Below, in pieces: positions 10,633 through 35,378 of a stretch of DNA of 35,543 nucleotides. Within the stretch, counting starts at the first letter, position 1. The number at the start of each line of letters is the position of its first letter. The notes beneath the pieces are model-generated. The model was not told the origin of the DNA and made no database searches. It saw only the letters and a list, made by a program, of their open reading frames with translations. The DNA comes from Ignavibacteria bacterium. Its GTDB lineage: Bacteria > Bacteroidota > Ignavibacteria > Ch128b. Location: the NCBI GenBank assembly GCA_016873845.1, contig VGVX01000023.1, positions 1-35,543 of the forward strand, given 5' to 3'. The translations under genes and the position numbers were made by a program.

Positions 10633-10656
10633 TTTTACAGAATTACTTCTGTAAAA
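10633..10656 (-). other. Hairpin enclosing the stop codon of the 2020-residue protein gene
   Basis: TTTTACAGAA (10633-10642) and TTCTGTAAAA (10647-10656) form a perfect 10-bp stem with the stop codon in the 4-nt loop. One arm encodes the end of the sorting domain (ILQK) and the other is untranslated. A related 8-bp version sits at the same place in the paralogue. Confidence 0.65.
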
Positions 10657-16600: not shown

Positions 16601-16705
16601 GTTAATACACAGATCTTTTATTTGGGCTGTACTTGAATTGTAGAATATTGCGATGAAAATAAAAGAGAGTGTAACACTCAAAAAAATGTTGAATCTATGT
16701 TTCAT
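10643..16705 (-). CDS. Giant SdrD_B-repeat surface protein with type IX-type sorting domain (paralogue A)
   Basis: From MKHRFNIFLSVTLSF the product has 2020 residues; AAAGGA about 8 nt upstream supports this ATG over the longer frame. After a signal peptide (cleavage near STAQ) comes a unique region to about 230. Eight SdrD_B-like domains follow, each opening like GDKVWxDxNxNGIQDxGE (about 232, 348, 583, 700, 817, 933, 1053, 1170), with a DUF11-like domain at about 472-580. Then come one TYTQGGWG-type domain (about 1273-1430), a 450-residue region shared with the neighbour, a CBM11/CIA30-like strand set (LSDYNAIRLTVKGQGNIWLR, about 1795-1918) and the sorting domain (YPNPFNPST...KMILQK). The DxNxNGxxDxGE loops resemble calcium-binding loops, and five repeats carry a Cys pair. 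It is probably a long stalk that displays a binding module. Function is inferred from architecture only. Confidence 0.85.
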   Translation of the reverse strand: MKHRFNIFLSVTLSFIFIAIFYNSSTAQIKDLCINISSVKTQVATLNTSFDVNNNIKVVLTVAKTLNDNTYGTNSIGWPGGNHKFDHLVGSDKAHFVFKNASGTTVFDFDLDYLHGDNSIPSKYRSLGISGGDGKLYTGQANWLLSYNTSLNRNFNEFGYVLTTNSPATNSNYDPNPSYPNWIFEMIYEVTIDKAAFGTSGYGSVTVPDMHHSPNKYGLGNVISPYDCTPPKGSLGDKVWLDANENGIQDADESGVANVTVKLYSGSSLLKTTVTNSTGMYLFSDLVAGSYQVEFVLPSGYLFSQQDQGTDDSKDSDADITTGKTIIISLAAGQNDLKWDAGIYRDCKNSLGDFVWHDKNVNGIQDAGEVGIEGVVVELLKGTSVIQTSTTDAAGKYLFTNLANGTYSVRVAASNYASGGILYSSAQTKWYATKKNQGSDDSKDSDAGKNESVSVTLNCANNITIDFGFFKTCVSVTKSSNKTTAKPGDVITYTFTAENCGDISLTGGVDFYDALINPVAPHKINNISPINPGDKKSFTKTYTVKESDCGDLVNTVKAVGHPADGSADVEHTASVTVKIECKSSIGDKVWNDLNENGLQDDGEPGIKDITVKLFDCADNFKKEVKTDADGKYLFSELTPGDYYLQFVKPSDFLFTTKDAGSDDSKDSDADVSTGKTVCTTLSPSENDLTWDAGLIIKKASLGDKVWKDLNKDGIQDEGEPGIKDITVKLYNCADVYIKEVKTNANGIYLFNNLIPGSYKVLVQLPDDYLFSLKYQGSDDSKDSDIDPITWKSECITLAAGENNLTIDAGMYLKPASIGDFIWKDLDKDGIQDEGELGMKDVVVKLYDCAEGFIAQTTTNENGLYSFANLEPGSYVILVQLPDGHSFSPKDHGSDDAKDSDVNPTSWKTICITLSPGENNTTVDAGIYLTPVPVCTIGDKVWNDVNMNGIQDSGEEGMKDVLVRLMDCSGNKLAEKKTNESGLYLFENVIKGSYQIQFVLPSSYAFSPKDRGGNDLLDSDADVLTGKTVCFPIDPPHCDSNSTRWDAGIYRLKASVGDFVWYDLNKNGIQDSGEPGISGITVKLFDCSNNLMSTTTTNSTGKYKFEDVMPGNYYVQFFAPTGYLFTQKNQGTDKKKDSDADPITGKTTCFELKAGQNDMTWDAGLSECITGAKVCGLVFNDVNANGIKDAGEVGIANVVIKLWGTSANLIATTLTDVQGKYEFLNVVDGQYHVQEIDPDGYYSTTPNSKLITISGFDQCGIEFGDRVKPTPEPCDLTKYKTYSNASWCLEPAKSLLISKFSSVFSSGMTLGGISSGYKATFSSASAVIAFLPQVGIAGSFNTNYSNPTTTSAGVFGGNLAALELNVQFNDAGFLGFTSTTKLKNLVVASGPMKDYKVSEVLAMAHKAIGGSSTPFSIAILNNVVESINANFNCDCSRGYLTCPKDPDMPGGGFDAGVESNANLADLLLRRLTKIEYGQTTKILRNPKIAFTASYGLYELFPNVGPMGSTPSESTPFDILGISNATSAYAVDYNLKLAKGDTRIASMFATTTNPPYIYEHTKAICDRLIDAEMQTLTQLEIGGKYYFASVLHKQNEGVTDYTIHFSVYERGGTFSVDSRWLIEDYTIPAGVTNIYNFQVWANNFNNAMYLVLGIVDQFQSKGNVEYLNNNSLPTSLVYVQKGKYQHNGTVELVINNSQLVADNVTILVRSRATQSGGREENSNTYSLVPGLNTITFKTGIVSDANVYLYSNNGFRDEVFVSGGAYTYLNGTSSNVATFTTNAYAPQRMSDYPEGSLVLSGGAKVEGQLNDWVTLFRSLTANASAYDLSDYNAIRLTVKGQGNIWLRIEQDGVKDYNFHSRSITLSGSEETLTIPFDLFLQREGVSSTLNPQLVRKISVVMEKRDNKDITNFEFEIKNIAFLSKGGSDKGKGETLPQEFKLAQNYPNPFNPSTMIEYSVANNEFVTLKVYDVLGQEIATLVNELKAPGKYSARFDASSLTSGIYVYRIQSESFSSTRKMILQK
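13195..16010 (-). repeat. Eight SdrD_B-like repeats encoded in paralogue A
   Basis: Units of roughly 340-360 nt encode the repeated GDxVWxDxNxNGIQDxGE...D(S)DAD...WDAGI pattern. They are diverged, not identical, and are interrupted once by the DUF11-like domain near 14960-15290. This is a protein-domain repeat, not a mobile or CRISPR repeat. Confidence 0.8.
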
Positions 16706-16842
16706 TTTTAGAATCCTTTCTATGGTTTTCACATATTTGTTCAACTTTGGTGCCAAGAAGATGGGAGGTTTTTAGAGAAATTTTGAATGAAGTAATTCTT
16801 TTAATGAATTAAAATGAGACGGGGTCTTACTTTGAGAAATAT

Positions 16843-16889: not shown

Positions 16890-16913
16890 TTTACAGATTA
16901 TTACTTCTGTAAA
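16890..16913 (-). other. Hairpin enclosing the stop codon of the 1933-residue protein gene
   Basis: TTTACAGA (16890-16897) and TCTGTAAA (16906-16913) form an 8-bp stem with an 8-nt loop that holds the stop codon (16901-16903). It corresponds in position and sequence to the hairpin at 10633-10656. Confidence 0.55.
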
Positions 16914-19900
16914 ATCATCTTTTTAGTAGCAGTGTAAGACTCACTTTGAATCTTGTAGAGATAAACTCCAGAACTTAATCCATTCGCATCGAATCTAACT
17001 GAATGTACTCCAGGTTTTTTAGTTTCATTGACTAAGTTGGCGACTTCTTTTCCGAGAACGTTGTAAACTTTAATAGTTACAAACTCACTCTTGGCAACCG
17101 AGAACTCGATCAATGTACTTGGATTGAACGGATTCGGATAGTTCTGCGAAAGCTTAAATTCTGTCGGAACTGATTCGCCTTTACTTCTATCAGAACCATT
17201 CTTGCTCAAGAAAGCAATGTTCTTGATTTCGAATTCGAAGTTAGTTAGCGTGCTGTTATCTGCTTTATCCATATAGATGGAGATCTTTCTTACAAGAGAA
17301 GGATCGAATTTAGCAGTTGAGCTTCCAACTTGTTTGAGTTCGCTGAATGGAATTGTAAGATCTAGTGCTGAACCATCGAGTACAATTTGTTTTGCATGAT
17401 AGTTGAACCCACTTATACCATCTTGTTCTAATCTCAACCAAACTTTGCCGTATCCTCTCATCGTAACTTTGAGAGCATTGTAGTCGCTTAAGTCATAAGG
17501 TGCAGTATTGGCAGTAAGCGATCTGAACATTGAAACCCAATCGCTTAGTTTACCTTTTACTTTTGCACCGCCAGAGAGAATCAATGCTTCGCTAGGCAAT
17601 TCAGATGCAGATACAGTTGTGAACGTGTTGGTAACAAATTCATCAACTTTTGAAGCCGAACCATTCAAGTAGGTATAAGCACCGCCGCTGACAAATACTT
17701 CGTCTCTGAATCCGTTTGAAGATGAGATATACAGATTTGCATCTGAAATCACACCGGTCTTCAGATAGATTGTATTCAATCCAGGCTGTACACCGAATGA
17801 TTGAGAGCTTTCAATTTTGCCGCTTCCCTGTATTGACCGTGATTTGGTTTTAATTGTAATGTTATCTGCAACAACTTGATTGTTTTGGACAACTAGTTCG
17901 ATAGTTCCAGTATGACTGTATTTACCTTTTTGTACATAGACCAATGTTGGCGGTAAGGAAATGCTATTATTGTACTGAACCATTCCTCTTGAAGCGAATT
18001 GATCTATAATACTCATAACAAGGTACATAGTACTGTTGAAGTTACTTGCCCAAACTTGGAAGTTGTAAACATTGCTTACGCCGGATGGTACATCATAATC
18101 CTCAATTAACCAGCGTGAATCAACTATAAACGTTCCGCCTTTTTCATAAACGCTAAAGTTTATTGTATAGTCATACAGATTTTCAGCTTGTTTATAAAGA
18201 ACAGAAGCAAAGTAATAGTTGCCATTGATTTCAACATGTGATAAGTGCTGAAGTTCCGCATCGATTAATCTATCACAGATTGATTTTGTATGTTCATAGA
18301 CATAAGGCGGATTGGTTGTAGTTGCAAATATACTTGCAACACGAACATCACCTTTTGCCATATTAAGATTGTAATCAACAGCATATGCAGAGGTCGCGTT
18401 TGAAATTCCAAGAATATCGAACGGTGTAGTTTCTTTTGGTGTTGAGCCAAGAGGTCCAACGTTCGGGAATAACTCATTCAAACCATAACTTGCTGTGAAA
18501 GCAATCTTTGGATTACGAAGCATTTTTGTAGTTTGACCATATTCAATTTTAGTTAATCTTCTAAGTAAGAGATCAGCTAAGTTAGAGTTAGATTCTACAC
18601 CAGCATCGAATCCGCCGCCGCATGGATCTGGAGGAGGCGGGCAGACCAAGAAGCCGAGGTTGCAGTTATCAAAGTTTTCGTTAATCTTCTTAACAACGTG
18701 ATTCAGTGTCGCCATATCAAATGGGCTAACTGTTCCGCCGAGAGCTTTATTAACGATATTAAGTACTTCATAAACTTTGAAGTCTTTTAATGGACCGCTT
18801 CCAACAACTAAATTGCCAAGTTTTGTAGTGCTTGTATGACCGAGTAATCCAGCATCATTGTAAGCAAGATTTAAGGCCAATGCTAGAATGTGTCCAGCAA
18901 ATTCACCAGCTGGAGTGTTGACTGGATTAATATAGCTTTGATCAAGAGCATAGGGCACACCGGACTGCGGCATAAAGTTCTTTACTGCATTTGCAGAAGT
19001 GAATTTTATTTGATAACCAGCACCATGATCGCCAATTATTAATCCACTAGTGAATAATGTCGTGAACTTGGAATCGAGTAAATTGTATCCTTTAACACTC
19101 TTCCAACTATTCTGAGTCATGGTTGAGTATTTTGTAAGATCACATGGTTCTGGAGTCGGTTTTACTTTATCACCGAATTTCAGACCATATTTGTCCGCAC
19201 CTGCAATAGTGATGAATTCAGAATTTGGAGTCGTACTGACATAGCCCGGTAAATCAATTTCTTGAACGTGATATTGACCGTCAATTACATTCATGAATTC
19301 AAATTTACCGAGTGCATCAGTTAAAGTTGTTGCAATCAGATTTGCAGCAATTCCCCAAAGCTTCATTTCAACGTTTGCAATACCGACTTCACCAGCATCG
19401 TGTACGCCATTTCCATTGGCATCGTTAAAGACTTTGCCAGCAACTTTAACACCTGGAGGACATGAGATAATACCGGCATCCCATTTGGTGGAATTGCTGT
19501 CGCACCATGATGGATCGATATTGAAACAAGCCGTCTTTCCAGTTGCTGGATCAACGTCTGAATCGATAAGGTCGTTATGACCTGCATCTTTTGATGTGAA
19601 TGAATAACCGGCAGGAAGTCCTTCAAATTTTACTGTGTAGAATCCTTCAACGACACTGGGGAATAAATATTTGCCATCGTGATCGGTTTTGGTAGTAAAC
19701 AGTGGACTTGAAGTGCTGCAAGCGAATAATTTCACTGTAATATCTTTTACACCAGGTTCTCCAGCATCTTGGACGCCATTTTTGTTTTTATCTTCCCATA
19801 CACGGTCGCCTATTGCACACGTTGGCGGAGGAGTATGGAGATAAATTCCAGCATCCCATTTAGTGGAATTGCTATCGCACCAGCTTGGATCAATTGTGAA

Positions 19901-22702
19901 ACACGTTGTTTTTCCATTCGAGTATTCAACATCAGAATCGAATAAATCGTTTGTTTTATTTGCCGGGCTAAATTCATATCCGGTAGGTAATTCAAATTGG
20001 ATTTGATATTGACCAGCAATCACATCGGCAAATAAATAATTACCGTGTTCGTTTGTTTTGGTAGTTTTAATTGCGGTACTGCTGCTGCAGGCAGTTAATT
20101 TAACAGTAATATCTTTTACGCCTGGTTCACCAGAATCTTGGACGCCATTTTTATTTTTGTCTTCCCATACTCTGTCGCCGATTGAACATGTTGGCGGAGG
20201 AGCATCTTGATATATACCGGCATCCCACTTAGTCGAGTTACTGTCGCACCAAGATGGATCGATATTGATACAGTAAATTTTTCCTGTTGAAGGATCAACA
20301 TCTGAATCTAATAAGTCATTGTGTCCAGCATCTTTTGGACTGAATTTCCATCCTGCCGGAAGGTCTTCAAAAATAAGTGTATAGTTTCCAGCAGTAACAC
20401 CGGTAAATAAATACTTACCATCATGGTCGGTTAACTTCGTATCTATATAAACTGAAGAGCTGCAGGTTATTAGCTTAACTTTCACATTTGCCATACCTGG
20501 CTCGCCAGCATCTTGAATACCGTTTTTATTCTTGTCATTCCATACTCTATCACCGATTGAACAGGTTGCTGATAGGTACATTCCGGCATCAACATCTGCC
20601 TTATTTTGTCCGGCAGCAAGGTTTATACAATCGGTTTTCCAGGTGATAGGATCAACATCGGAATCTTTACTATCGTCGTGACCATTGTCTTTCGGACTAA
20701 ATGAAAATCCTGATGGAAGCTGAGCTAAAATTGTATAAGATCCGGAGCTCAGATCACCGAAATTATATTTTCCATCAGAAGCAGATTTTTTCTCTGCAAT
20801 CCAATTATCATGACAATCATAGAGTTTAACAGTTACATCTTTCATTCCAGGCTCGCCGTGATCTTGGACTCCATTTTTATTCAGATCGTTCCAAATTAGA
20901 CCACTGATCGAACCTTTATGAGGAGTAGCAAGCTTATCGCCAAAATTATTATTGTATTTTTTATCGCCCTGATTAGCTGTAACGGTTATTTCGTTTGGTG
21001 AAGTGCTTACATAACCGGCTGGATCAGTTTCTTTAACTTTATAGACATTTGGAATTAAATATCCAAAGCAGTATTCACCATTAACTCCAGTAGTAGTCGA
21101 AGCAACAAATTCTCCAGTTGCTTTAATGAATAATTCAACTAAAACGTCTTTAATTCCGAGTTCAGATGGATCTTTTACACCATTGCTGTTCAGATCATCG
21201 AAAACGATTCCGCAAATGTCGGCAGAAAGGATATCGCCAAAATTGTTATTCTGTGAACTTTCACCTGCAGAAATCATCAAATTAATCCAGTTCGAAGTTA
21301 CACTTCTATACATGTCTGGATCAATTTCTTCAACAGTGTAGATACCTGGAATTAAATCTCGGAATTCATAAAATCCAGCATCATCTGTTAGCATTGAAGT
21401 TTCAATTTGTCCATGTTCATCATAGAGTTTTATTACAACGTCCTTTAATGGGGCTTCACCTAATTCTTTAATGCCATTTTTGTTTGCATCAACGTAGGCA
21501 TATCCAGAAATCTTAGCGAGACTTGGACCACATTTGTAGCCAAAGTTGTTATTAGTTTTATTTTCACCTGAACCGAGTGTCAAATTAATCGGATTGTGTG
21601 TAGTAGTTAAAACTAATAATGGTGGATCAATTGCTTGAATTTTATATCCACCTGCTGGCAAATTGGAGAATTTATAAAATCCAAATTCATCAGTCAGTGT
21701 AACAGCTTTCTGAACTGAGCCCTCATACAACTTAACGGTTACGTGTTTTAATCCAAATTCAAAACTGTCGAATGAACCATTGGAATTCACATCGAAAAAT
21801 ACTGAACCTGAAATTGAACCAAGAACAGGTGTAGTTGGACATTTCAAAAATCCTTTATTGACTTTTCCTTCGTCAAAGTTTTCGTTGATGGCGGTCGCTG
21901 CATCATTCAATTGAGAATAAGAGTATGGAGTTGTTCCGCCGCTTAATGACTTATTAACAATGTCCATTACTTCATAAACAGTTTTCCCTGCAAGGGGACC
22001 AGCGCAAACAATTAACGAACCAAGTTTTACACTACCTGTACCAATTTTTCCTGCATCACTGAAAGCGATATTCATTTTTAGAGCAACCGCTTGTCCAGCA
22101 AAAACACCGGCCTTTGTCGATTTTGAATCAACATAATTTTTATCAAGTGCTTTTGGTGTTCCTCCGGCTGGCAGGAAATCTTTCACATCTTTTGCTTCGG
22201 AGAGTTTTAATGTAAAGCCACTGGACTGTCCAACGACTAATCCACTGGGAAACACAGATGGAAAATGAAGGTCGCGAATATTGCCGGGATTTGTTGAAGA
22301 AGAAGGAATGGTTTTTAATTCTGTAATCTTATATGTAAAACCATCTTTATTGACTTCCATCCCAACATAGATTGGCTGTGAACAAGAAGTATGTATGACA
22401 ACTGATTTTCCATTAGAATAGGTAAAGGTTGTATTAGAACCGAGCTTATCAGTTCCATTTCCTTTGGAGACTTCTTGTCCAGTTGGAAGCTGCTTAACAG
22501 TTATTTTCGTGACACCGTCACATAACTTTCCTCCTTTATTTCCCCATCCTCCTTGGGTATATGTGACGAAGTTATTCAAGTCACAGCTTCCCGATTGAGC
22601 GGACGCAGGATTATAAAGGGATATAATTGCCATTAATATTATGGCAAAGAGCAAATAGGTCTTTTGTAGAAAAGAACCTAACAATGTAGAATAGGATCTC
22701 AT
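16901..22702 (-). CDS. Giant SdrD_B-repeat surface protein with type IX-type sorting domain (paralogue B)
   Basis: The 1933-residue protein starts at ATG 22702 with AGGGGGA just upstream. A signal peptide (FAIILMAIISLYNPASAQS) leads into a first TYTQGGWG-type domain (about 47-285: FVTYTQGGWGNKGG, FPSGLVVG, AGVFAGQAVALKMNI, INENFDEG). Eight SdrD_B-like domains follow (about 294, 391, 494, 597, 714, 836, 957, 1081). Numbers 5-7 are nearly identical 122-124-residue units opening CSIGDRVW or CAIGDRVW and closing WCDSNSTKWDAGI. A second TYTQGGWG-type domain is at about 1187-1345. The rest (FDAGVESNSNLADLLLRRLT, CBM11/CIA30-like strands about 1704-1834, sorting domain YPNPFNPST to KMILQK) matches paralogue A closely. 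The pair therefore looks like a tandem duplication with reshuffled N-terminal halves. Surface display is well supported; a ligand is unknown. Confidence 0.85.
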   Translation of the reverse strand: MRSYSTLLGSFLQKTYLLFAIILMAIISLYNPASAQSGSCDLNNFVTYTQGGWGNKGGKLCDGVTKITVKQLPTGQEVSKGNGTDKLGSNTTFTYSNGKSVVIHTSCSQPIYVGMEVNKDGFTYKITELKTIPSSSTNPGNIRDLHFPSVFPSGLVVGQSSGFTLKLSEAKDVKDFLPAGGTPKALDKNYVDSKSTKAGVFAGQAVALKMNIAFSDAGKIGTGSVKLGSLIVCAGPLAGKTVYEVMDIVNKSLSGGTTPYSYSQLNDAATAINENFDEGKVNKGFLKCPTTPVLGSISGSVFFDVNSNGSFDSFEFGLKHVTVKLYEGSVQKAVTLTDEFGFYKFSNLPAGGYKIQAIDPPLLVLTTTHNPINLTLGSGENKTNNNFGYKCGPSLAKISGYAYVDANKNGIKELGEAPLKDVVIKLYDEHGQIETSMLTDDAGFYEFRDLIPGIYTVEEIDPDMYRSVTSNWINLMISAGESSQNNNFGDILSADICGIVFDDLNSNGVKDPSELGIKDVLVELFIKATGEFVASTTTGVNGEYCFGYLIPNVYKVKETDPAGYVSTSPNEITVTANQGDKKYNNNFGDKLATPHKGSISGLIWNDLNKNGVQDHGEPGMKDVTVKLYDCHDNWIAEKKSASDGKYNFGDLSSGSYTILAQLPSGFSFSPKDNGHDDSKDSDVDPITWKTDCINLAAGQNKADVDAGMYLSATCSIGDRVWNDKNKNGIQDAGEPGMANVKVKLITCSSSVYIDTKLTDHDGKYLFTGVTAGNYTLIFEDLPAGWKFSPKDAGHNDLLDSDVDPSTGKIYCINIDPSWCDSNSTKWDAGIYQDAPPPTCSIGDRVWEDKNKNGVQDSGEPGVKDITVKLTACSSSTAIKTTKTNEHGNYLFADVIAGQYQIQFELPTGYEFSPANKTNDLFDSDVEYSNGKTTCFTIDPSWCDSNSTKWDAGIYLHTPPPTCAIGDRVWEDKNKNGVQDAGEPGVKDITVKLFACSTSSPLFTTKTDHDGKYLFPSVVEGFYTVKFEGLPAGYSFTSKDAGHNDLIDSDVDPATGKTACFNIDPSWCDSNSTKWDAGIISCPPGVKVAGKVFNDANGNGVHDAGEVGIANVEMKLWGIAANLIATTLTDALGKFEFMNVIDGQYHVQEIDLPGYVSTTPNSEFITIAGADKYGLKFGDKVKPTPEPCDLTKYSTMTQNSWKSVKGYNLLDSKFTTLFTSGLIIGDHGAGYQIKFTSANAVKNFMPQSGVPYALDQSYINPVNTPAGEFAGHILALALNLAYNDAGLLGHTSTTKLGNLVVGSGPLKDFKVYEVLNIVNKALGGTVSPFDMATLNHVVKKINENFDNCNLGFLVCPPPPDPCGGGFDAGVESNSNLADLLLRRLTKIEYGQTTKMLRNPKIAFTASYGLNELFPNVGPLGSTPKETTPFDILGISNATSAYAVDYNLNMAKGDVRVASIFATTTNPPYVYEHTKSICDRLIDAELQHLSHVEINGNYYFASVLYKQAENLYDYTINFSVYEKGGTFIVDSRWLIEDYDVPSGVSNVYNFQVWASNFNSTMYLVMSIIDQFASRGMVQYNNSISLPPTLVYVQKGKYSHTGTIELVVQNNQVVADNITIKTKSRSIQGSGKIESSQSFGVQPGLNTIYLKTGVISDANLYISSSNGFRDEVFVSGGAYTYLNGSASKVDEFVTNTFTTVSASELPSEALILSGGAKVKGKLSDWVSMFRSLTANTAPYDLSDYNALKVTMRGYGKVWLRLEQDGISGFNYHAKQIVLDGSALDLTIPFSELKQVGSSTAKFDPSLVRKISIYMDKADNSTLTNFEFEIKNIAFLSKNGSDRSKGESVPTEFKLSQNYPNPFNPSTLIEFSVAKSEFVTIKVYNVLGKEVANLVNETKKPGVHSVRFDANGLSSGVYLYKIQSESYTATKKMILQK
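19460..21830 (-). repeat. Eight SdrD_B-like repeats encoded in paralogue B
   Basis: The three units between about 19460 and 20570 are about 365-372 nt each and are very similar to one another also at DNA level, sharing the segment encoding WCDSNSTKWDAGI. The other units are more diverged. The close similarity implies recent duplication or gene conversion and a risk of assembly collapse. Confidence 0.8.
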
Positions 22703-24866: not shown

Positions 24867-26969
24867 ATGAAGAAGAAACTCCTACTATCTTTGGTCATAT
24901 TGCAGGTTACATTAGTCGTACTTGCACCGAGCGCTTCAATGGCGCAAGAACTCAGAACCTATACTCTTAAGGATATAGGATTTCAAAAAGACATTGTTCT
25001 TTATGGAATAACACCAGCACACACTTTCTTTTTTCCAATTCCACGTTCTGGGATAGATTTCTCAAACAGTTATTTTGAACTGCACTACTCTTTCTCGAGC
25101 ATTTTATCAGAATATTCTAATATAAAAGTATCTATCAATGATGTTCCAGTGTATACGTCTTTTTATAGAACCGCTGTTACGAGTCCCATTGTTAGGATTT
25201 CATTGGCAGGAGTTAAACAAGCTGATATATTGGAATCCGAAAAGCCTCTTCTAAAAATTGAAGTTGGCGGATATCTGAATATTACTGACGACAGGTGCAG
25301 GGATTTAGCAACGCAAGCTCTTTGGTTGGTGATAAGGCAAGATTCAAGATTGACTTTATCATTTCCAACGGATGTTTCGAAAAATCTAATCGCCGATTTC
25401 TTCTCGAGCCGGATGGAAAAAAACTTAATTTTAATTCCAAAAAACCTCGATCCTCAAGTTGCGGGTGCTGCTACTTGGGTAAACACACGGATGCTGGAAG
25501 ACGTCAAAACCTCAACTATCGATTATGATTCCTTTGAAGAATTCAATATTAATAAGATAGGGACATATTCGCATGTAATTTGTGTAGGGAAAATTGATAA
25601 TTTAATGAGTCTACCTATTCCACTTGCAACGAACCGGGATGGGATAAAGGAATATTTCAAGCAGGATCTCACTCCCGATGACGGTATACTCCTCACAAAA
25701 ACTTTCGGCGGTACAAAAGTCCTATATGTTTCAGGGGAAACTCCAACCGCAGTTCAGAAGGCCGGAGGAACATTAGTGAATCCAAAACATTATGCAAAGT
25801 TATTGAGTAATTTTGCGGTCATTCGCTATATTGAACCCTTCAAGATTAAATCCTTTAAAGATAACAAATATAAACTGACTCTTGATGAATTGGGTTATGA
25901 AAAATTGCAAACCAAAGGAATTGGTAGTCTAAGAATTACAATGTATTTTTCCGAATTAGATTTAGCAAAATCAATTGATAATGTTGATTTTTATCTGTAC
26001 TCAAAATACACTCCGGTCAAAGAAACTTTTCCAAATGGATTCTTAAATGTCTATTTGAATGATGTGCTAGTTGAAAGCAAACGTCTCGATGCAAGCGGAA
26101 CTTTTAACGGTTTGTATGTTTCGTTGCCGAAATATCTATTTAAAAAAGTAAACACATGCGATCTAGAGTTCAATTACTTTCCAGATGAAGGTGAGTGCAG
26201 AGACGATCTGACTCAATTCGTAGGTGAAATCTATTCATATTCTTACTTTGATATTACAACTGGAGTCGTTGAAAAAGTAAATAATTTCAGCAAATTCCCG
26301 AATTCGTTTTTACTAAATACTTACATGGTGTTTCAATCGAATCCACTTCCACAGCATATCGAAGCCGCTGCTTCTGTAATTCGATCGATTCAAACACTAT
26401 CTAGACAAACTCAATATTATCCCCCATCGATGAGTTTTGCTGAGATGTTTAATACTATGGAGAATTCGAGTAACAATTATATTGTAGTCTCTTCAGATGT
26501 AAGGTATAATAAAGAATCATTCGAATATCTGCCGCTCGATATGAATCAACGGTTTAAAATTATCAGCAGTTCTACAAAGCAAGTTATGTTCGAATATTCC
26601 GATGAAATGCCTATTGCAGTCATGCAGTTAACACGTACACTCACCAATAATGAAGTTCTTTTATTATCGAGCTATGGCGATCAAGGAAAGAATTATTTAG
26701 TTCAACTTGCCGATCACTTTAGTCAAAGAATAAGTAATGTTGATGGAAACGTCGCTATTTTGAGTGGAACAGATTATCCATTATTCTTTAAGACTACAGA
26801 AGCGATTGACAAAATACTTTATACAACAAAAGAAAACGTGCCTGTTGTTAAAATATCTTGGGATAAATATAAATATGTTTATTTATTGATTGGATGGATA
26901 CTGATCATAGCAATATCAATTTTACTTTACTTCAGAAGTCAAAGAGGAGTTAGAATTGCGCGCTCATAA
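24867..26969 (+). CDS. bcsB: BcsB-like periplasmic subunit of an exopolysaccharide synthase
   Basis: The 700-residue protein has a signal peptide (cleavage near ASMA/QE, residue 26), a long beta-rich periplasmic region and one C-terminal transmembrane helix (YVYLLIGWILIIAISILLYF, about 672-692). This is the layout of BcsB, which sits in the periplasm, hands the growing glucan outward and packs its tail helix against the synthase. Typical segments are SYFELHYSFSSILSEYSNIKVSIND and a second copy of the fold with GFLNVYLNDVLVESKRLD...LEFNYFPDEGECRDD, i.e. two carbohydrate-binding-like halves each ending in a C-R-D motif (DDRCRD, EGECRDD). It is somewhat shorter than E. coli BcsB (779). It opens a five-gene unit and overlaps the next gene by 14 nt. 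Confidence 0.85.
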   Translation: MKKKLLLSLVILQVTLVVLAPSASMAQELRTYTLKDIGFQKDIVLYGITPAHTFFFPIPRSGIDFSNSYFELHYSFSSILSEYSNIKVSINDVPVYTSFYRTAVTSPIVRISLAGVKQADILESEKPLLKIEVGGYLNITDDRCRDLATQALWLVIRQDSRLTLSFPTDVSKNLIADFFSSRMEKNLILIPKNLDPQVAGAATWVNTRMLEDVKTSTIDYDSFEEFNINKIGTYSHVICVGKIDNLMSLPIPLATNRDGIKEYFKQDLTPDDGILLTKTFGGTKVLYVSGETPTAVQKAGGTLVNPKHYAKLLSNFAVIRYIEPFKIKSFKDNKYKLTLDELGYEKLQTKGIGSLRITMYFSELDLAKSIDNVDFYLYSKYTPVKETFPNGFLNVYLNDVLVESKRLDASGTFNGLYVSLPKYLFKKVNTCDLEFNYFPDEGECRDDLTQFVGEIYSYSYFDITTGVVEKVNNFSKFPNSFLLNTYMVFQSNPLPQHIEAAASVIRSIQTLSRQTQYYPPSMSFAEMFNTMENSSNNYIVVSSDVRYNKESFEYLPLDMNQRFKIISSSTKQVMFEYSDEMPIAVMQLTRTLTNNEVLLLSSYGDQGKNYLVQLADHFSQRISNVDGNVAILSGTDYPLFFKTTEAIDKILYTTKENVPVVKISWDKYKYVYLLIGWILIIAISILLYFRSQRGVRIARS

Positions 26970-27795
26970 AAGTGTAATTTCAATATTGGCATTTATTGTA
27001 CTGCTTTCTTCAAATGGCAGTGCGAGTGTCTGGCAGCAAAAAGCCGGCAAATATTTCCTCTCCGGTGTGCAAACTTTTTATTCATCAGAAACTATCTTCA
27101 ATAGAAATGGGGACAGATTCTTTCTGCCGCTTGGTGGAATATTCACTAAATATGAAACCAATCTATACTATGAATTCGGATTGGAAGATAATATTATGTT
27201 CCTTTCCAATTTTTTCTTCTATGGACTAAGTTATCGTGATAGTATTGGATTGATAACAAACGGTGGATTTGGTGATCAAGAAGTTGGTCTCCAATTTCAA
27301 CTCACAAGAGATGCCCCTAGTGCAGCTTTGCAGTTTCTTGTTTCCTTTCCATTGTATAGCAATCCTGGCGATCCACCACTTGGTAACAGCCAAGTAGATC
27401 TTCAAGTTGGGGCGCTAGTTGGCTCCCCATTCGGATTTACAGGTACACAGGGTTTCTGGGAAATATTCTTTGCAATCAGAAAAAGATTCGAAGCTCCGTC
27501 GGATCAGCTTCGCGGAGGACTTACAATCGGGTTAAATATTTCACCCAGAGTGTCGATACTATTAGCAAGTAACCTGATTCTTGGTCTTGGAAATCATGAC
27601 AAAGTTGATTCTACATTAAGATTCAGTCAAATTTTCGAAAGAAATTTAGATTTTTCGCTTCTTAAAGTAGAACCAGCATTAATTTATAAGTTCAACAAAC
27701 ATTTATCAGGATATGTCGGATTCAGCGTGGACGCCTTTGGACGAGAAGTCGGTGCCGGAAGAGCTTTTAAGCTCGGAATCTGGTACCAGTCATAG
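26956..27795 (+). CDS. Predicted outer-membrane beta-barrel, candidate export pore
   Basis: The 279-residue protein has a signal peptide (SVISILAFIVLLSSNGSAS). The rest alternates hydrophobic and polar residues in strand-length blocks with many aromatic girdle residues and glycine turns: TKYETNLYYEFGLED, EVGLQFQLTRD, AALQFLVSFPLYS, WEIFFAIRKRF, GGLTIGLNISPRVSILLASNLILG, LKVEPALIYKFN and a final FKLGIWYQS. This suggests a 12-14-strand barrel; I cannot name the family. The TTG start at 26956 has AGGAG 6 nt upstream and overlaps bcsB by 14 nt, which indicates translational coupling. It lies between BcsB and the synthase, where cellulose systems need an outer-membrane exit, but it has no BcsC-like TPR region. 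Its role as the exporter is inferred from position. Confidence 0.65.
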   Translation: MRAHKSVISILAFIVLLSSNGSASVWQQKAGKYFLSGVQTFYSSETIFNRNGDRFFLPLGGIFTKYETNLYYEFGLEDNIMFLSNFFFYGLSYRDSIGLITNGGFGDQEVGLQFQLTRDAPSAALQFLVSFPLYSNPGDPPLGNSQVDLQVGALVGSPFGFTGTQGFWEIFFAIRKRFEAPSDQLRGGLTIGLNISPRVSILLASNLILGLGNHDKVDSTLRFSQIFERNLDFSLLKVEPALIYKFNKHLSGYVGFSVDAFGREVGAGRAFKLGIWYQS

Positions 27796-29638
27796 TCAAG
27801 CTTTACAAAGTGCTCTGCTAAAACATAGAGTATTTTCAAAAGCTCAGATAGAAGCTATTGAAGAACATGGAAAAAGTGAAAATCTATATTTTCCAAAAGT
27901 TCTTCTATTTTATGGACATATATCTCGCACGGATTATGAAACGATAATTCGGTGGGAAATTCCTGTTCATAAAATTGATCTCCTCAAGCAGGACATCGAT
28001 TACGAGCTTCTTGCAAATTTTGATCAAACTTACCTCAATGATAAACTCGTTGTACCAGTCAGGAGAGATGCGAATTCGCTCTTAATTGCCATGGTCAATC
28101 CGCTTGATGAGGAAGTGATTAACACAATTTATGATAAAATAAAAATGCCATTGAAAATTTATTACGCTACGGACGTCGACATTCAATGGGTTTTAAATAA
28201 AGCTTTTGGACAGGAATTAGCAAGCAGCGCAGTATATAGCTTATTCACGGAAGACGAGCGAAGTTCGGCTATTGAAACATTTACTCTACCACAAACTCTT
28301 GGTCTTGCATTGCTTGGAACTTTGTTGGTTATCGGTCTTGCGGTCGAACCGAGGACAACGACAATAATTCTGATGGCATTGGTGAATTTACTATACTTAT
28401 TCTCAATTGGTTTTAAGTTTATTCTCACCCTTGCTGGTGCAAGATTTGAAATGTACGAAAGTGTAACTCAAGCAGAAGTGAAGGAATTGGAAAATAAAGA
28501 CCTTCCACCATATAGTATTCTTCTGCCGGTTTACAAAGAACCAGAAGTAATCGAAACATTAATAGCTGGACTAAATAAACTCGATTACCCGAAAGATAAA
28601 TTAGACATAAAAATCCTTCTTGAGGAAGAAGATTTTCCAACGATCGATAAGATTCGTAATCTAAACATCCCATCGCATTTCGAGTGTATAATTGTACCAA
28701 ACATGCAGCCGAAGACAAAACCAAAAGCCTGTAATTATGGCTTGGTATTTTGTCGCGGTGACATTGTTACAATTTACGATGCCGAAGATATTCCAGAACC
28801 TGACCAGCTTAAGAAAGCAATAATAGGATTCAGAAAATTCCCCGAAGATGTAATCTGTATCCAAGCTCAGCTTAATTATTTTAATGCAAACGAAAACTTC
28901 TTAACAAGAATGTTTACACTCGAGTATTCATACTGGTTTGATTACATGCTTCCTGGTATGGATAGACTTAATGTACCAATTCCATTGGGGGGTACAAGCA
29001 ACCATTTTATTAAAGACAAGTTGATAGAGCTTAATGCTTGGGATCCTTTCAATGTTACCGAAGATGCTGATTTAGGTATTAGAGCATATGCAAAGGGATA
29101 TAAAATTGGTACTATAAATTCCACAACTTATGAAGAAGCAAACAAGCATACAGCAAGCTGGATTCGTCAACGTTCCCGTTGGGTAAAAGGATATATGCAA
29201 ACATTTCTTGTGCATTTGAGAAATCCTCTTTTACTTTTCCAAAGGATCGGTGTCCGAGGTATTTTCGCTTTCTTCATGTTTATCGGAGGTACTCCGGCGA
29301 CATTCTTGATAAATTTGCCATTGTGGATTCTGTTTGTAGTTTGGCTCGTCTTCAAGCCTGCGTGGATTTCTGATGTTTTCCCTGCGTGGGTTTTGTACAT
29401 ATCACTATTTAACCTGCTAATTGGTAACGCGATGGTTGTTTATATGAACATGCTTGCAGTATTTCGCAGAAGGCAATACAACCTTGTAACGTTCGCTTTG
29501 CTGAATCCTGTTTATTGGATTCTCCATTCATTAGCTTCGTATAAAGCATTGTGGCAATTAATTGTAAAGCCATTCTATTGGGAAAAAACAACACACGGAT
29601 TAACAACTTATTCCAAACCAGAAATAAAGAGTTCGTAA
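27713..29638 (+). CDS. Cellulose-synthase-like GT2 with N-terminal GspE_N/MshEN-like domain
   Basis: The 641-residue protein is a membrane processive-type glycosyltransferase. Residues about 27-165 resemble the GspE_N/MshEN domain: two helical units (QALQSALLKHRVFSKAQIE; FPKVLLFYGHISRTDYETII), then KLVVPVRRDANSLLIAMVNP. Two transmembrane helices (about 192-212, 215-240) precede the GT-A domain (about 266-500): PVYKEPE, KPKACNYGL, DAED (356-359), TED (449-451) and QRSRW (486-490, the QxxRW motif). Several more helices follow. There is no C-terminal PilZ domain. Known MshEN domains bind cyclic di-GMP; here the Arg and Gly of the first RLG are not preserved, so binding is uncertain. The layout resembles XagB-type synthases. 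The ATG at 27713 makes an 83-nt overlap with the barrel gene; GTG 27752 is an alternative start. The polymer is unknown. Confidence 0.85.
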   Translation: MSDSAWTPLDEKSVPEELLSSESGTSHSQALQSALLKHRVFSKAQIEAIEEHGKSENLYFPKVLLFYGHISRTDYETIIRWEIPVHKIDLLKQDIDYELLANFDQTYLNDKLVVPVRRDANSLLIAMVNPLDEEVINTIYDKIKMPLKIYYATDVDIQWVLNKAFGQELASSAVYSLFTEDERSSAIETFTLPQTLGLALLGTLLVIGLAVEPRTTTIILMALVNLLYLFSIGFKFILTLAGARFEMYESVTQAEVKELENKDLPPYSILLPVYKEPEVIETLIAGLNKLDYPKDKLDIKILLEEEDFPTIDKIRNLNIPSHFECIIVPNMQPKTKPKACNYGLVFCRGDIVTIYDAEDIPEPDQLKKAIIGFRKFPEDVICIQAQLNYFNANENFLTRMFTLEYSYWFDYMLPGMDRLNVPIPLGGTSNHFIKDKLIELNAWDPFNVTEDADLGIRAYAKGYKIGTINSTTYEEANKHTASWIRQRSRWVKGYMQTFLVHLRNPLLLFQRIGVRGIFAFFMFIGGTPATFLINLPLWILFVVWLVFKPAWISDVFPAWVLYISLFNLLIGNAMVVYMNMLAVFRRRQYNLVTFALLNPVYWILHSLASYKALWQLIVKPFYWEKTTHGLTTYSKPEIKSS

Positions 29639-31153
29639 ATGGGAATCAAATTACGTGACATACTTGTTTTTTTCTTTTTCTGGATAGCATTTTTCATTAT
29701 CGGTGTTTTCTTCTACACTAGCTATAGCTTCTACGCACAAGAAGGCATTTTCCTGATGGAAAAAGCGCAGCTTGCTATGCGTGGAAATCCACCCAGATTA
29801 GAAAATATGGGATTAATATATCCTCCTCTTCCATATCTATTTTATCTGCCATTATCGATTTCTTCTTCACCGATTGCATCATTAGTTATTTCGACATTTT
29901 GGGGTGCATTCTGTGTGGCACTTTGTGTAAGATATTTACGATGGATACCGGGAAACACTGCAATTAAGATTGTAGTTACTGTCTTGTTCTTCTTAAATCC
30001 AATCTTTCTATATGTGATGTTTGCTCAACCGAGCCTGACGCTTTACATGGTGTTTTTTGTGATCTTTGTTTATTCATTTTTCAGATTTCATGAAACAAGA
30101 ATCCCGTATTACATTGTTTTGTCTGGTGTAGCTTTGGGTGCAATGGCGGGCATCAGGTATGATACATTTTTTCTAACAATGGCTTTAATTCCTTTTGCTC
30201 CATTCTTGATATCTGAATCTACAGATTTCAATATTACTCGAATATTTGCACTTACAATGATGCTGGTTTTACCGACATTCATCGTGCTTGGATCATGGAT
30301 TTATCTTAATTGGATTTTTACTGGTGAACCGTTTTACTTTTATTTCAGTCCATATTCCTATTTCAAACAGGTTTCAAATGAAATGGCACTTCGTCCTGAG
30401 TTATTTGATGCGAAGGGGGATATAATTAAATCCGTTTGGGTAGTTTTAAAGATGGCATTCCTCGCATTCCCAGCTTACTTTTTTGTTCTTCCGACTATTC
30501 GGACAGTAACACTATTTGTCGCTGCAATCGCGCCAGTAATTCTTCAGATTATTGTTATCTTTTTGGGAATCTCATCATTGTCAGTCAGTTGGTTTGCAGT
30601 ATTGATCCCGATTACGATCATCGTAGTTTATTACTTTGTTAACTCTCCGAGTTATCAGCCTGCATATGGCGGATTAATATCGGTTTTAATGTTTGTATCA
30701 TTATTTTTTGGATATTATTCATTATCAAATTCGGTAGATTTTACAGAAGTTAATTTCACAAAAGCATTACAAGGCGAGCAGGTTCAAGATCTATTTGAGG
30801 AAGAATTAAATGTAGCAAAATTCCTTAAGCAGAATACAACAGAAAAAAGCAAAATACTTATCGATGATGCAGTTGGTTATCCGATAGTCTGTTTTTACAG
30901 CAATCCTGAGCAATTCTTTTTACCTTACCAACATGATTATTTGAGATCACTGCAGCAGCCGGCATTCAGAGCGGATTATATTGTAGTACCAAAACCAGAA
31001 ATTACTGCAACTGGATTTGATCAATTGACAGCAATGTATCCTGATGCATTTGAACAAGGATTTGATTATACTACACTTGTTTACCAGACTTCAAAATGGA
31101 GAGTCTATAGATCATCAGTTACAGAATCAAATTTATCTTATGAGGGACAATGA
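29639..31153 (+). CDS. Polytopic GT-C (PMT/ArnT-like) glycosyltransferase
   Basis: The 504-residue protein has about 11 transmembrane helices in its first 370 residues and a soluble C-terminal region of about 120 residues. The first extracytoplasmic loop carries SFYAQEGIFLMEKAQLAMRG followed by NMGLIYPPLPYLFY, the acidic-residue and YPP pattern typical of PMT-type GT-C enzymes that use lipid-linked sugars on the outer side of the inner membrane. The ATG begins directly after the synthase stop (TAA-ATG, no gap), so the two must be on one message. Its likely job is to add a sugar or another group to the polymer or its lipid carrier while it emerges. The sequence does not show the donor or acceptor, and O-mannosylation of protein is an alternative. 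Confidence 0.75.
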   Translation: MGIKLRDILVFFFFWIAFFIIGVFFYTSYSFYAQEGIFLMEKAQLAMRGNPPRLENMGLIYPPLPYLFYLPLSISSSPIASLVISTFWGAFCVALCVRYLRWIPGNTAIKIVVTVLFFLNPIFLYVMFAQPSLTLYMVFFVIFVYSFFRFHETRIPYYIVLSGVALGAMAGIRYDTFFLTMALIPFAPFLISESTDFNITRIFALTMMLVLPTFIVLGSWIYLNWIFTGEPFYFYFSPYSYFKQVSNEMALRPELFDAKGDIIKSVWVVLKMAFLAFPAYFFVLPTIRTVTLFVAAIAPVILQIIVIFLGISSLSVSWFAVLIPITIIVVYYFVNSPSYQPAYGGLISVLMFVSLFFGYYSLSNSVDFTEVNFTKALQGEQVQDLFEEELNVAKFLKQNTTEKSKILIDDAVGYPIVCFYSNPEQFFLPYQHDYLRSLQQPAFRADYIVVPKPEITATGFDQLTAMYPDAFEQGFDYTTLVYQTSKWRVYRSSVTESNLSYEGQ

Positions 31154-31524
31154 GCAATTATAAAATTTTAATCGTAGACGACAATCCACTTGTCGTAAAA
31201 ATGCACTTGCATTATTTAAAACGTGCCGGCATGGATGCCGATACAGCACCAAATGGTAAAGAGGCAAAATCAAAAATATCGGACAACCATTACGATTTAG
31301 TCATTCTTGACTTAATGATGCCTGAAGTCAGTGGATTTGAAGTATTAAAATTTCTCCGAACGAGTCCAAAGAATTCTTCTGCTAAAGTTATTGTTGCATC
31401 TGCATTAAATGACAAAGAAGTAGTTGAACTCGTGTTTCAGCTCGGAGCAAATCACTTTATTACTTCACCAGTATCGTACCAATCGTTAATTGAAAAAGTT
31501 AATGCTGCTTTAAAGGGAGAATAA
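31150..31524 (+). CDS. Stand-alone response-regulator receiver with altered active site
   Basis: This 124-residue protein is a single CheY-like receiver with no output domain. Asp10, Asp11 and Asp54 (LDLMMPE) form the acidic pocket and phospho-acceptor, and Ser84 (IVASAL) takes the Thr/Ser switch position. The Lys that normally precedes Pro near the end (KP) is replaced: the segment is NHFITSPVSY with Ser106-Pro107. That Lys is almost invariant in receivers and contacts the phosphoryl group, so signalling may be slow, altered or phosphorylation-independent. The ATG overlaps the GT-C stop (ATGA), making it the last gene of the exopolysaccharide unit, and a terminator overlaps its stop codon. 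Regulation of the synthase by protein contact is a reasonable inference; the hybrid kinase at 33429 could be its partner. Confidence 0.88.
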   Translation: MSNYKILIVDDNPLVVKMHLHYLKRAGMDADTAPNGKEAKSKISDNHYDLVILDLMMPEVSGFEVLKFLRTSPKNSSAKVIVASALNDKEVVELVFQLGANHFITSPVSYQSLIEKVNAALKGE

Positions 31525-31540
31525 AAATTCTCCCTTTTTT
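31515..31540 (+). terminator. Intrinsic terminator of the exopolysaccharide operon
   Basis: GGGAGAAT (31515-31522) pairs with ATTCTCCC (31527-31534) around AAAA, followed at once by TTTTTT (31535-31540). The left arm overlaps the last codons and the stop of the receiver gene. Confidence 0.93.
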
Positions 31541-33428: not shown

Positions 33429-35378
33429 ATGAAAAAAGCTAAAACAGCAACAAAAAAGTCAAAAGAAATTAAGAACGTAAAAACCAAATCAGTTAAATCA
33501 TCAAAACCAAATGAGGCAAGTTTTGATTTTATTCAATATTCGAGTGAGGCAATTATTCAGATTAATTCACGCGGAATAATAAAATCTTGGCAAGGAGCCG
33601 CATCGAAGATTTTTGGTTTTACAGAAAAACAAATTCTTGACAAACACATTGGTGCTCTGATTTCCGAGTATGAAAGAGGACGAAATGAAATCGTCAGAGC
33701 AATCATCTCTGAAAAAAATCTGACTAACTATGAGACAAGACTTTTAACTAAGTCTGGTGTGGAGATTTATGCAAATGTTTCTATGCTGGCTTACAAGCAA
33801 AAGAAAAGAAAAACAAACGATTATATTTTAATTGTTCGTGATATAACTGAAGAGAAAAATTTCAGAGATAGATTATTCACACTTCAGAATGCTCATTCCG
33901 AAATTATTGATGGAATGTTAATGGGCATGTTGATTCTCGATAAGGAAACTGCAGAGATAATTTTCATGAATAAACGCGGTATGGAGATGTTCCAACTCAC
34001 TGGTAAAGAAAACATAGGAAGGAAAATTTGGGATTTAGTAGACCCAGATTTAGTAAGTGAAGTAAATGATTTGATCTCATCTGATGTTGAGTTCTATACT
34101 CAGCTGCCCAAGCAATTAAAAGTACATCGATATCGCGATAAAACGAAATTTTGGATCGATGTTTATGCTTCGCGTATAATTTTCCATAAGCGTCCAAGTT
34201 CATTGTTCCTCTTTTTTGATAATTCAGAATTACGAGATCACGTCAAGAAGCTCGAAGAGACAGTCAAACAAAAAGATTTGCAAGCGGCAACAAAATCCAG
34301 ATTCATGGCAAACATGTCACATGAACTCAGGTCTCCTATTAATATTATTCTTGGTTATGTGGATATTCTGATCAGTTTGGAAGTAGATGCAGAAGTGAAA
34401 GAATTTCTAATATACATTCAGAAGAGCGCAGAGCATTTATTAAAAACTTTAAATGACATTCTTGATCTTTCGAAAGCTGAAGCAAGCAAAATCAAATTGA
34501 TAGAGAAACCATATAATATAGTTACTCTAATGAAATCGGTCCTTTCCATGATAGAGGTGAAGTTGATTGGGAAGAAAGTTGCATTAGATTATAATTCAAA
34601 TATTGAACCGGATAGTTATTTCAGTATCGATGCTCATAACTTGCAGCGTGTATTGCTAAATGTTTTAGATAATGCAGTGAAGTTCACTGATGAAGGATTG
34701 ATCTCGGTAGATGTGAAATATAGAAACAAAACTCTGAATTTTTCGATCAGCGATACTGGAATTGGAATGACACAAGAAGAGCTGGATAGACTTTTCACCC
34801 CATTCGAACAGGCTCACTGGGAAATCTCACAGAAATATGGCGGCAGTGGTTTGGGTCTCGCTATCTCAAAAGAGATTTGTGCTTTATGGAAGGGAGAAAT
34901 TAAAATTGAAAGCAAAAAAAATGCAGGTACGACTGTGACTTTTACTTACCCAGCGGAGCGTGCTGAGCAAATTGAAGAAGCTGAAGTTTCTGAATTGCCA
35001 AAAGATTTATCTATTATCAAAGGAAAGAAAGTTTTAGTAATTGACGATCAGGAATACAATCACAAACTATTCAAACTTATGCTCAGTGAATGTGACGTTG
35101 AGACAGTATTCTCTGGTAAGCTTGCTCTAAACAAGTTAATTACTGAGGATTTTGATGGAATAGTTTTAGACCTTCGTTTGCCTGATATCGCAGGAATGGA
35201 TGTAATTAAGGAAATTAAAAAAAGAGAAAGATTAAAAGACTTAAAGATTGTAACAACCTCCGCAGATATTTTAAGCGGATTGAAGGAAGAAATTGAGGAA
35301 ATGGGTTTAGTTTTTATTCCCAAACCTGTCCGGCGTGCAGATTTATTGAATGCGTTGATTACTGCTTTTTCGAAATAG
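33429..35378 (+). CDS. Soluble PAS-PAS hybrid histidine kinase with C-terminal receiver
   Basis: The 649-residue protein starts with a Lys-rich tail of about 25 residues (MKKAKTATKKSK...). Two PAS domains follow (about 33-150, IIQINSRGIIKSWQGAASKIFG; and about 155-270, GMLILDKETAEIIFMNKRGMEMF). The HisKA helix carries His298 in MANMSHELRSPINIILGY. The ATPase domain (about 395-515) has the N box NVLDNAVKF, G1 DTGIGM and GGSGLGLAI. The receiver (about 530-645) has Asp581 in VLDLRLPD and the usual KP near its end. No transmembrane segment is present, so it senses a cytosolic signal; no heme or flavin motif is evident. The ATG at 33429 has AAGGA 9 nt upstream. The internal receiver implies a phosphorelay through an Hpt protein that is not encoded here. 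The receiver protein ending at 31524 is a candidate partner. Confidence 0.92.
   Translation: MKKAKTATKKSKEIKNVKTKSVKSSKPNEASFDFIQYSSEAIIQINSRGIIKSWQGAASKIFGFTEKQILDKHIGALISEYERGRNEIVRAIISEKNLTNYETRLLTKSGVEIYANVSMLAYKQKKRKTNDYILIVRDITEEKNFRDRLFTLQNAHSEIIDGMLMGMLILDKETAEIIFMNKRGMEMFQLTGKENIGRKIWDLVDPDLVSEVNDLISSDVEFYTQLPKQLKVHRYRDKTKFWIDVYASRIIFHKRPSSLFLFFDNSELRDHVKKLEETVKQKDLQAATKSRFMANMSHELRSPINIILGYVDILISLEVDAEVKEFLIYIQKSAEHLLKTLNDILDLSKAEASKIKLIEKPYNIVTLMKSVLSMIEVKLIGKKVALDYNSNIEPDSYFSIDAHNLQRVLLNVLDNAVKFTDEGLISVDVKYRNKTLNFSISDTGIGMTQEELDRLFTPFEQAHWEISQKYGGSGLGLAISKEICALWKGEIKIESKKNAGTTVTFTYPAERAEQIEEAEVSELPKDLSIIKGKKVLVIDDQEYNHKLFKLMLSECDVETVFSGKLALNKLITEDFDGIVLDLRLPDIAGMDVIKEIKKRERLKDLKIVTTSADILSGLKEEIEEMGLVFIPKPVRRADLLNALITAFSK

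Follow-up and report, generated by a model that had tools for sequence, protein, structure and literature searches.

A BcsB-associated exopolysaccharide synthase operon of Bacteroidota whose MshEN domain appears uncoupled from cyclic di-GMP

Cellulose-type synthases are regarded as model effectors of cyclic di-GMP (c-di-GMP). The window analysed here, the whole stretch of 35,543 nucleotides of contig VGVX01000023.1 from an Ignavibacteria bacterium, carries between positions 24867 and 31540 a five-gene operon for a BcsB-like subunit, an outer-membrane beta-barrel, a synthase that joins an MshEN domain to a family 2 glycosyltransferase (GT2), a membrane glycosyltransferase of the GT-C fold and a single-domain receiver. 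The locus raises the question of what controls a BcsB-partnered synthase that has MshEN where BcsA has PilZ. We favour the reading, with a probability of roughly 0.6, that the operon encodes an exopolysaccharide synthase and exporter whose MshEN domain has been uncoupled from c-di-GMP and is kept as a docking or allosteric site, most likely for input from a receiver or kinase. What the computations show is the nature of the synthase, the gene order, the lost c-di-GMP motif and the want of a usable GGDEF domain in most hosts. The genes of the operon, and the motifs and hairpin described within it, all lie on the + strand.

The MshEN domain and its lost c-di-GMP signature

The synthase (641 aa, 27713..29638) matches PF13632/PF13641 and PF05157 above cut-off. 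The PF05157 (MshEN) match scores 53.5 bits against a cut-off of 23.1, which places the protein in the domain family, and covers residues 82-169, the C-terminal subdomain. Longer models span both subdomains (PilB, residues 31-173; NfrB, residues 26-174), and phmmer gave a weak match to the PilB structures 5tsg/6olj over residues 26-172 (E 0.0087). It is on these profile matches that residues 1-170 are assigned to GspE_N/MshEN; they agree with the preliminary description of the locus and give no sign of an unrelated fold.

The MshEN c-di-GMP receptor is recognised by two RLGxx..G..LxxxLxxQ motifs that lie five residues apart (PMC5013675). In the window synthase the 24+5+24 spacing is kept. The first motif position (residues 30-53, ALQSALLKHRVFSKAQIEAIEEHG, 27800..27871; consensus RLGxx..LxxQ, PMC5013675) and the second (residues 59-82, YFPKVLLFYGHISRTDYETIIRWE, 27887..27958) have both lost the c-di-GMP signature: neither retains Arg, Gly-3 or Gln, and all charged, glycine and glutamine contact residues have been replaced, so that the protein does not qualify as a receptor of this type. 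Among the Bacteroidota synthases, neither motif retains Arg or Gly-3 in any of 90 sequences, and Gln is kept in just 4/90 and 2/90; this sample of about 90 is mostly Mucilaginibacter, and a table with one sequence per lineage agrees for Arg and Gly. Even a relaxed form of the motif is absent from all Bacteroidota sequences, although it occurs once each in Geobacillus and NfrB and twice at locus L133. The Geobacillus MshEN retains RLG..Q and PLG..Q, that of NfrB PLG and RLG..Q, with the Gly of both motifs kept in these two proteins, and an alphaproteobacterial plasmid copy retains most of the motif. Mutagenesis of the Thermus PilF domain GSPII-A showed that measurable c-di-GMP binding needed the motif-2 position-1 Arg and both Gln restored, and that Gly-3 is required for high-affinity binding (PMC12002112). 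The window MshEN has none of the residues found to be necessary there.

The family has conserved residues of its own at motif 2, namely K62 (89/90), G68 (90/90) and R72 (90/90), all near-invariant, and S71, which is conserved across most lineages. The proportion of nonsynonymous differences (pN) is far below that of synonymous differences (pS) in both MshEN subdomains; saturation of the synonymous sites prevented the calculation of most dN/dS ratios. Simple decay of the domain was rejected on the strength of the near-invariant Lys, Gly and Arg and of this purifying selection. The best reading of these sequences is that MshEN in the Bacteroidota family descends from a c-di-GMP switch and probably no longer binds the nucleotide. 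The genome encodes a second MshEN/GspE_N protein, a PilB/GspE-type ATPase (L050:2138-3931) beside a second ATPase and a PilC-like gene, and its motif is apparently degenerate.

Profile searches of the window's assembly, which is 98% complete and on which all absences from this genome rest, found no PilZ and no EAL domain. The sole GGDEF domain is degenerate, with a signature that reads DTNKF; it sits in a GAF-like protein (L049:2694-4523), and one degenerate homologue was present in each family member searched. In 51 operon-bearing genomes, a GGDEF domain was missing from 40, degenerate only in nine (the window and Kryptonia families) and apparently intact in two, and three further genomes had none. 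The locus itself yielded no c-di-GMP riboswitch or other Rfam element when searched. These genome searches suggest that operon-bearing bacteria seem mostly unable to make c-di-GMP. The preliminary description had implied that MshEN acts as a c-di-GMP switch in the place of PilZ; with the contact residues replaced, and most carriers lacking a usable GGDEF domain, this idea is not supported.

Two-component neighbours and the input to the synthase

The best candidates for another input are linked two-component proteins, a lone receiver here and a membrane histidine kinase or receiver elsewhere. The last gene of the window operon (31150..31524) encodes a receiver of 124 aa (PF00072, 86.8 bits, above cut-off) in which the acidic pocket and the Asp are present. 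It scores 55 bits against the EpsW equivalog model NF041866 (cut-off 200) and thus falls outside that group. A receiver likewise ends the operon in lineage f35, lies beside bcsB in f6, occurs additionally upstream in Fibrisoma and f38, and in f53 lies immediately beyond the operon on the other strand. In 68 of the 81 testable loci, bcsB is preceded, at a distance of -23 to +51 nt, by the gene for a membrane histidine kinase whose N-terminal transmembrane region is shared between loci, and this kinase is found again in f31, f53 and f38. Counting Sphingobacteriaceae and Spirosomataceae as one, a receiver and/or kinase flanks the operon in 7/8 lineages. With the 37 receiver domains of the window's genome and about 2,600 genes assumed, chance adjacency amounts to a few percent per lineage; the joint probability of about 1e-7 is indicative only, since the lineages were not blindly chosen and share ancestry. 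The flanking receivers examined contain no DNA-binding domain, and a role of the operon receiver as a transcription factor was rejected because it has no output domain. The preliminary description had already proposed regulation through the receiver, and the recurrence of two-component neighbours strengthens this, although contact between receiver and MshEN is something that we infer. The gene for a hybrid histidine kinase (PAS-PAS-HisKA-HATPase-receiver, 33429-35378) follows that of the lone receiver after 1.9 kb, downstream of two opposite-strand genes, and this kinase is a possible partner of the receiver; at locus L037 there follows a protein of similar length that carries a receiver.

MshEN, with its own conserved residues under purifying selection, would most likely be where such an input docks or acts allosterically, and the two-component proteins would exert their effect post-translationally. 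The precedent comes from Myxococcus, in which EpsW activates EpsZ, so that a single-domain receiver can directly control an exopolysaccharide enzyme (PMC12802240). The bolder proposal, that MshEN has turned into a docking site specifically for the operon-encoded receiver or kinase and that direct two-component control replaces the second messenger at a BcsA/BcsB-type synthase, is one that we advance tentatively. Several observations weigh against uncoupling from c-di-GMP combined with two-component input. Kryptonia has no two-component gene adjacent to the operon. The conserved receiver Lys is replaced by Ser in the window family (f1) and by Val in f35, so that the residues of a phospho-switch are incomplete and normal phospho-switching is doubtful, and the H-box is degenerate in some of the operon-linked kinases. 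In addition, some proteins with imperfect MshEN motifs can nonetheless bind c-di-GMP (PMC5013675), and the two genomes with an apparently intact GGDEF signature, both Mucilaginibacter, carry the operon.

Of the alternatives, the one that survives best is that MshEN is a structural or dimerization element without signal input. Control would then be transcriptional, and receiver or kinase would act on expression or on something else. The f6 branch, which has retained synthase and operon without the four-helix subdomain, is in line with this, as are the degenerate kinases and the lost receiver Lys. We nevertheless regard it as rather unlikely: conservation of K62 and R72 extends across the lineages, and that of S71 to most of them; even distantly related lineages have two-component genes next to the operon; and, as noted above, the flanking receivers examined contain no DNA-binding domain. 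A switch of ligand, to another nucleotide or a phosphorylated metabolite bound through K62 and R72, is less probable again. The near-invariant basic residues in motif 2 would suit it, with K62 directly after the old Gly-3 contact position. R72, however, would by its motif position lie at the end of the helix-turn and outside the guanine pocket (as deduced from PMC5013675) and is also found in the canonical Geobacillus protein, and there is no candidate ligand. Finally, MshEN might still bind c-di-GMP, perhaps through a low-affinity, non-canonical motif, and activate the synthase as in NfrB (PMC8669469). The domain does score above the Pfam cut-off, and both the tolerance for imperfect motifs and the two Mucilaginibacter genomes already mentioned would fit. 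Given that about 90 sequences have lost every Arg and Gly of the two motifs and nearly every Gln, that comparable substitutions abolish binding in PilF (PMC12002112) and that the host is without usable GGDEF, EAL or PilZ, we consider continued binding improbable.

The operon, its product and its conservation

The five open reading frames overlap or abut (in order, a 14-nt overlap, an 83-nt overlap, 0 nt and 4 nt, ATGA), form a single operon and end in an intrinsic-terminator-like hairpin of 11 pairs with a T tail (31512..31537); all these junctions and the one terminator were found again, at the level of reading frames and hairpin, as first described. The first gene (24867..26969) encodes the BcsB-like periplasmic subunit, 700 aa with a signal peptide and a C-terminal membrane anchor (PF03170, 79.2 bits, cut-off 21). 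It is the sole BcsB match in the genome, and BcsB adjoins GT2 in 90+ loci. The GT2 domain of the synthase scores 70.8 bits (Pfam), and its DAED (DxD-type; residue 356, 28778..28789), TED (residue 449, 29057..29065) and QRSRW (residue 486, 29168..29182) motifs are invariant in 19/19 aligned sequences. The DxD, TED and QxxRW motifs and the adjacent BcsB identify a processive GT2 with a BcsB partner.

Neither the barrel nor the GT-C protein has a Pfam match above cut-off, and both were characterized by AlphaFold2 models built from family alignments and by Foldseek. The barrel gene (26956..27795, TTG start, 279 aa) encodes a candidate export channel, modelled with 12-13 long strands (pLDDT, the predicted local confidence score, 83.1). 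Its nearest structures are FapF (E 5e-10) and a COG4313 channel (E 3.5e-9), with TM scores of 0.6-0.7, and a relative at locus L160 matches PF13557. The 83-nt overlap with the synthase gene is identical in 5/5 members of the window family measured, the window included. Where computable, the synthase frame of the overlap is nearly fixed at synonymous sites (pS 0.03-0.08) and variable at nonsynonymous sites (pN 0.14-0.15). Such a pattern would be expected if the constraint came from the barrel frame, which encodes its last strand at this point; synthase residues 1-27 thus probably matter little for their own sake. The gene after the synthase (29639..31153, 504 aa) is newly identified, from its model (pLDDT 83.5), as a GT-C enzyme: the top matches are PglB, ArnT, DPY19, OST and ALG12 (probability 1.0 and TM 0.4-0.5 for PglB, ArnT and ALG12), which places it in the GT-C superfamily, and its counterpart in Geobacillus is annotated GT39. 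Pfam, alignment, and structure models with Foldseek thus bear out the components named in the preliminary description, and its proposal of an operon for a secreted glycan is supported.

In the mechanism that we infer, from the sugar used to the release of the product, GT2 would polymerise a nucleotide sugar and deliver the chain across the inner membrane to BcsB. In the periplasm the chain would be decorated by the GT-C enzyme, using a polyprenyl-phosphate sugar, and the small barrel would release the polysaccharide across the outer membrane. That the locus is an ordinary cellulose (bcs) operon, as BcsB and the GT2 signature might suggest, is very improbable, for the GT2 protein reaches 55 bits against a cut-off of 699 for the BcsA/CelA equivalog TIGR03030 and has no PilZ, the genome contains no PilZ, BCSC_C (BcsC) or GH8 match and the operon no tetratricopeptide repeat (TPR) barrel, which extends to the whole assembly the absence of PilZ, TPR exporter and cellulase in the preliminary description, and a GT-C gene stands beside nearly every copy.

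Synthase relatives were collected from 99 related genomes, from a phylum-wide draw of 395 genomes (11 positive) and from contigs of named genomes (the best 80 of 306). The core BcsB-(barrel)-MshEN-GT2-GT-C was present in at least eight Bacteroidota lineages and 90+ loci, so the genes are not scattered, and its order is preserved in the window family, Kryptonia (f16), Mucilaginibacter/Pedobacter, Spirosoma/Fibrisoma, f31, f53, f38 and f35. In f6, BcsB-GT2-GT-C is kept, the MshEN four-helix subdomain is unrecognisable, and a second GT-C gene and a barrel gene lie downstream; the two GT-C genes (L044, L045) are divergent and in opposite orientation. Mucilaginibacter has no barrel gene between bcsB and GT2, and a hidden one was rejected, as the gaps examined are 37-183 nt and contain no long frame. 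The synthase tree joins f35 to the window family (94/98), the receiver gene directly following the GT-C gene in both, and places Kryptonia with the Bacteroidia lineages in another group (94/89). A conjugative plasmid of Geobacillus stearothermophilus (L132) carries BcsB-MshEN-GT2-GT39 with a canonical MshEN and no barrel; the absence of the barrel from this Gram-positive member fits a role as outer-membrane exit channel.

Some further features were observed beside these loci. Kryptonia encodes an additional protein without a Pfam match between bcsB and the barrel gene (L041:9420-10589), and a mannose-1-phosphate guanylyltransferase-like gene lies upstream of the Geobacillus operon. A Frigoribacterium plasmid (L134) encodes a GT2 protein, 47% identical, in which MshEN is reduced to its second half, the N-terminal helical subdomain being absent. 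Elsewhere in the window, a very large SdrD-like repeat protein (16901-22702), whose C-terminus resembles type A secretion-sorting signals (YPNPFNPST...), adjoins a 2037-aa reading frame (10643-16756).

Known relatives and significance

The architecture itself is not novel. As described in PMC8250860, the Sfz/Sfb/xag-like clusters have a BcsB-like protein adjoining a GT2 that carries an EpsE-like domain at its N-terminus, and the window operon fits this description. In the parts of the sources available to us (PMC8250860, PMC4643136), the Sfz1-Sfz2-(Sfz3) stalk cluster of iron oxidisers shares the EpsE/GspE_N-like domain (IPR007831), and its third gene product, Sfz3, is a protein of about 500 aa with no known function that matches the GT-C enzyme in length and position only. 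It differs in having a GH10-like Sfz4 and in being thought to depend on c-di-GMP, and those parts mention no barrel, receiver or kinase. E. coli NfrB/NfrA/YbcH likewise fuses GT2 to MshEN in an exopolysaccharide synthase with an outer-membrane partner (PMC8669469, PMC8669472). Its MshEN, however, is C-terminal and binds c-di-GMP, its exporter is a TPR-barrel, and it has neither BcsB nor GT-C; the window synthase, with its N-terminal MshEN, scores 26.7 bits against the cut-off of 1170 for the NfrB equivalog NF008411 and so is not an NfrB. BcsA-BcsB shares GT2, BcsB and the DxD/TED/QxxRW motifs, whereas the window operon has MshEN for PilZ, includes GT-C and lacks BcsC and BcsZ. Thermus PilF GSPII-A belongs to a pilus ATPase whose sister domains do bind, in contrast to a whole synthase family that has lost the signature (PMC12002112). 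EpsW resembles the window receiver in having a single domain and in belonging to a set of exopolysaccharide genes, and acts on a glycosyl-transfer enzyme (PMC12802240); EpsZ, however, is a phosphoglycosyl transferase, and EpsW needs phosphorylation, whereas the window receiver is without the conserved Lys.

What is new is the family-wide loss of the c-di-GMP signature from a domain with conserved residues of its own, in hosts mostly without a usable messenger system, together with the linked two-component genes and the identification of the GT-C enzyme; within the literature collection searched, no description of this Bacteroidota operon was found. The GT-C enzyme offers a candidate function for the third gene of the stalk cluster in iron oxidisers. 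An MshEN-GT2 protein should not automatically be taken for a c-di-GMP receptor. Among the Bacteroidota examined, many have no usable c-di-GMP system, and the operon would be a case in which an inherited switch has been retained and re-specialised where its messenger is apparently missing, with a concrete prediction of what may have replaced the c-di-GMP input.

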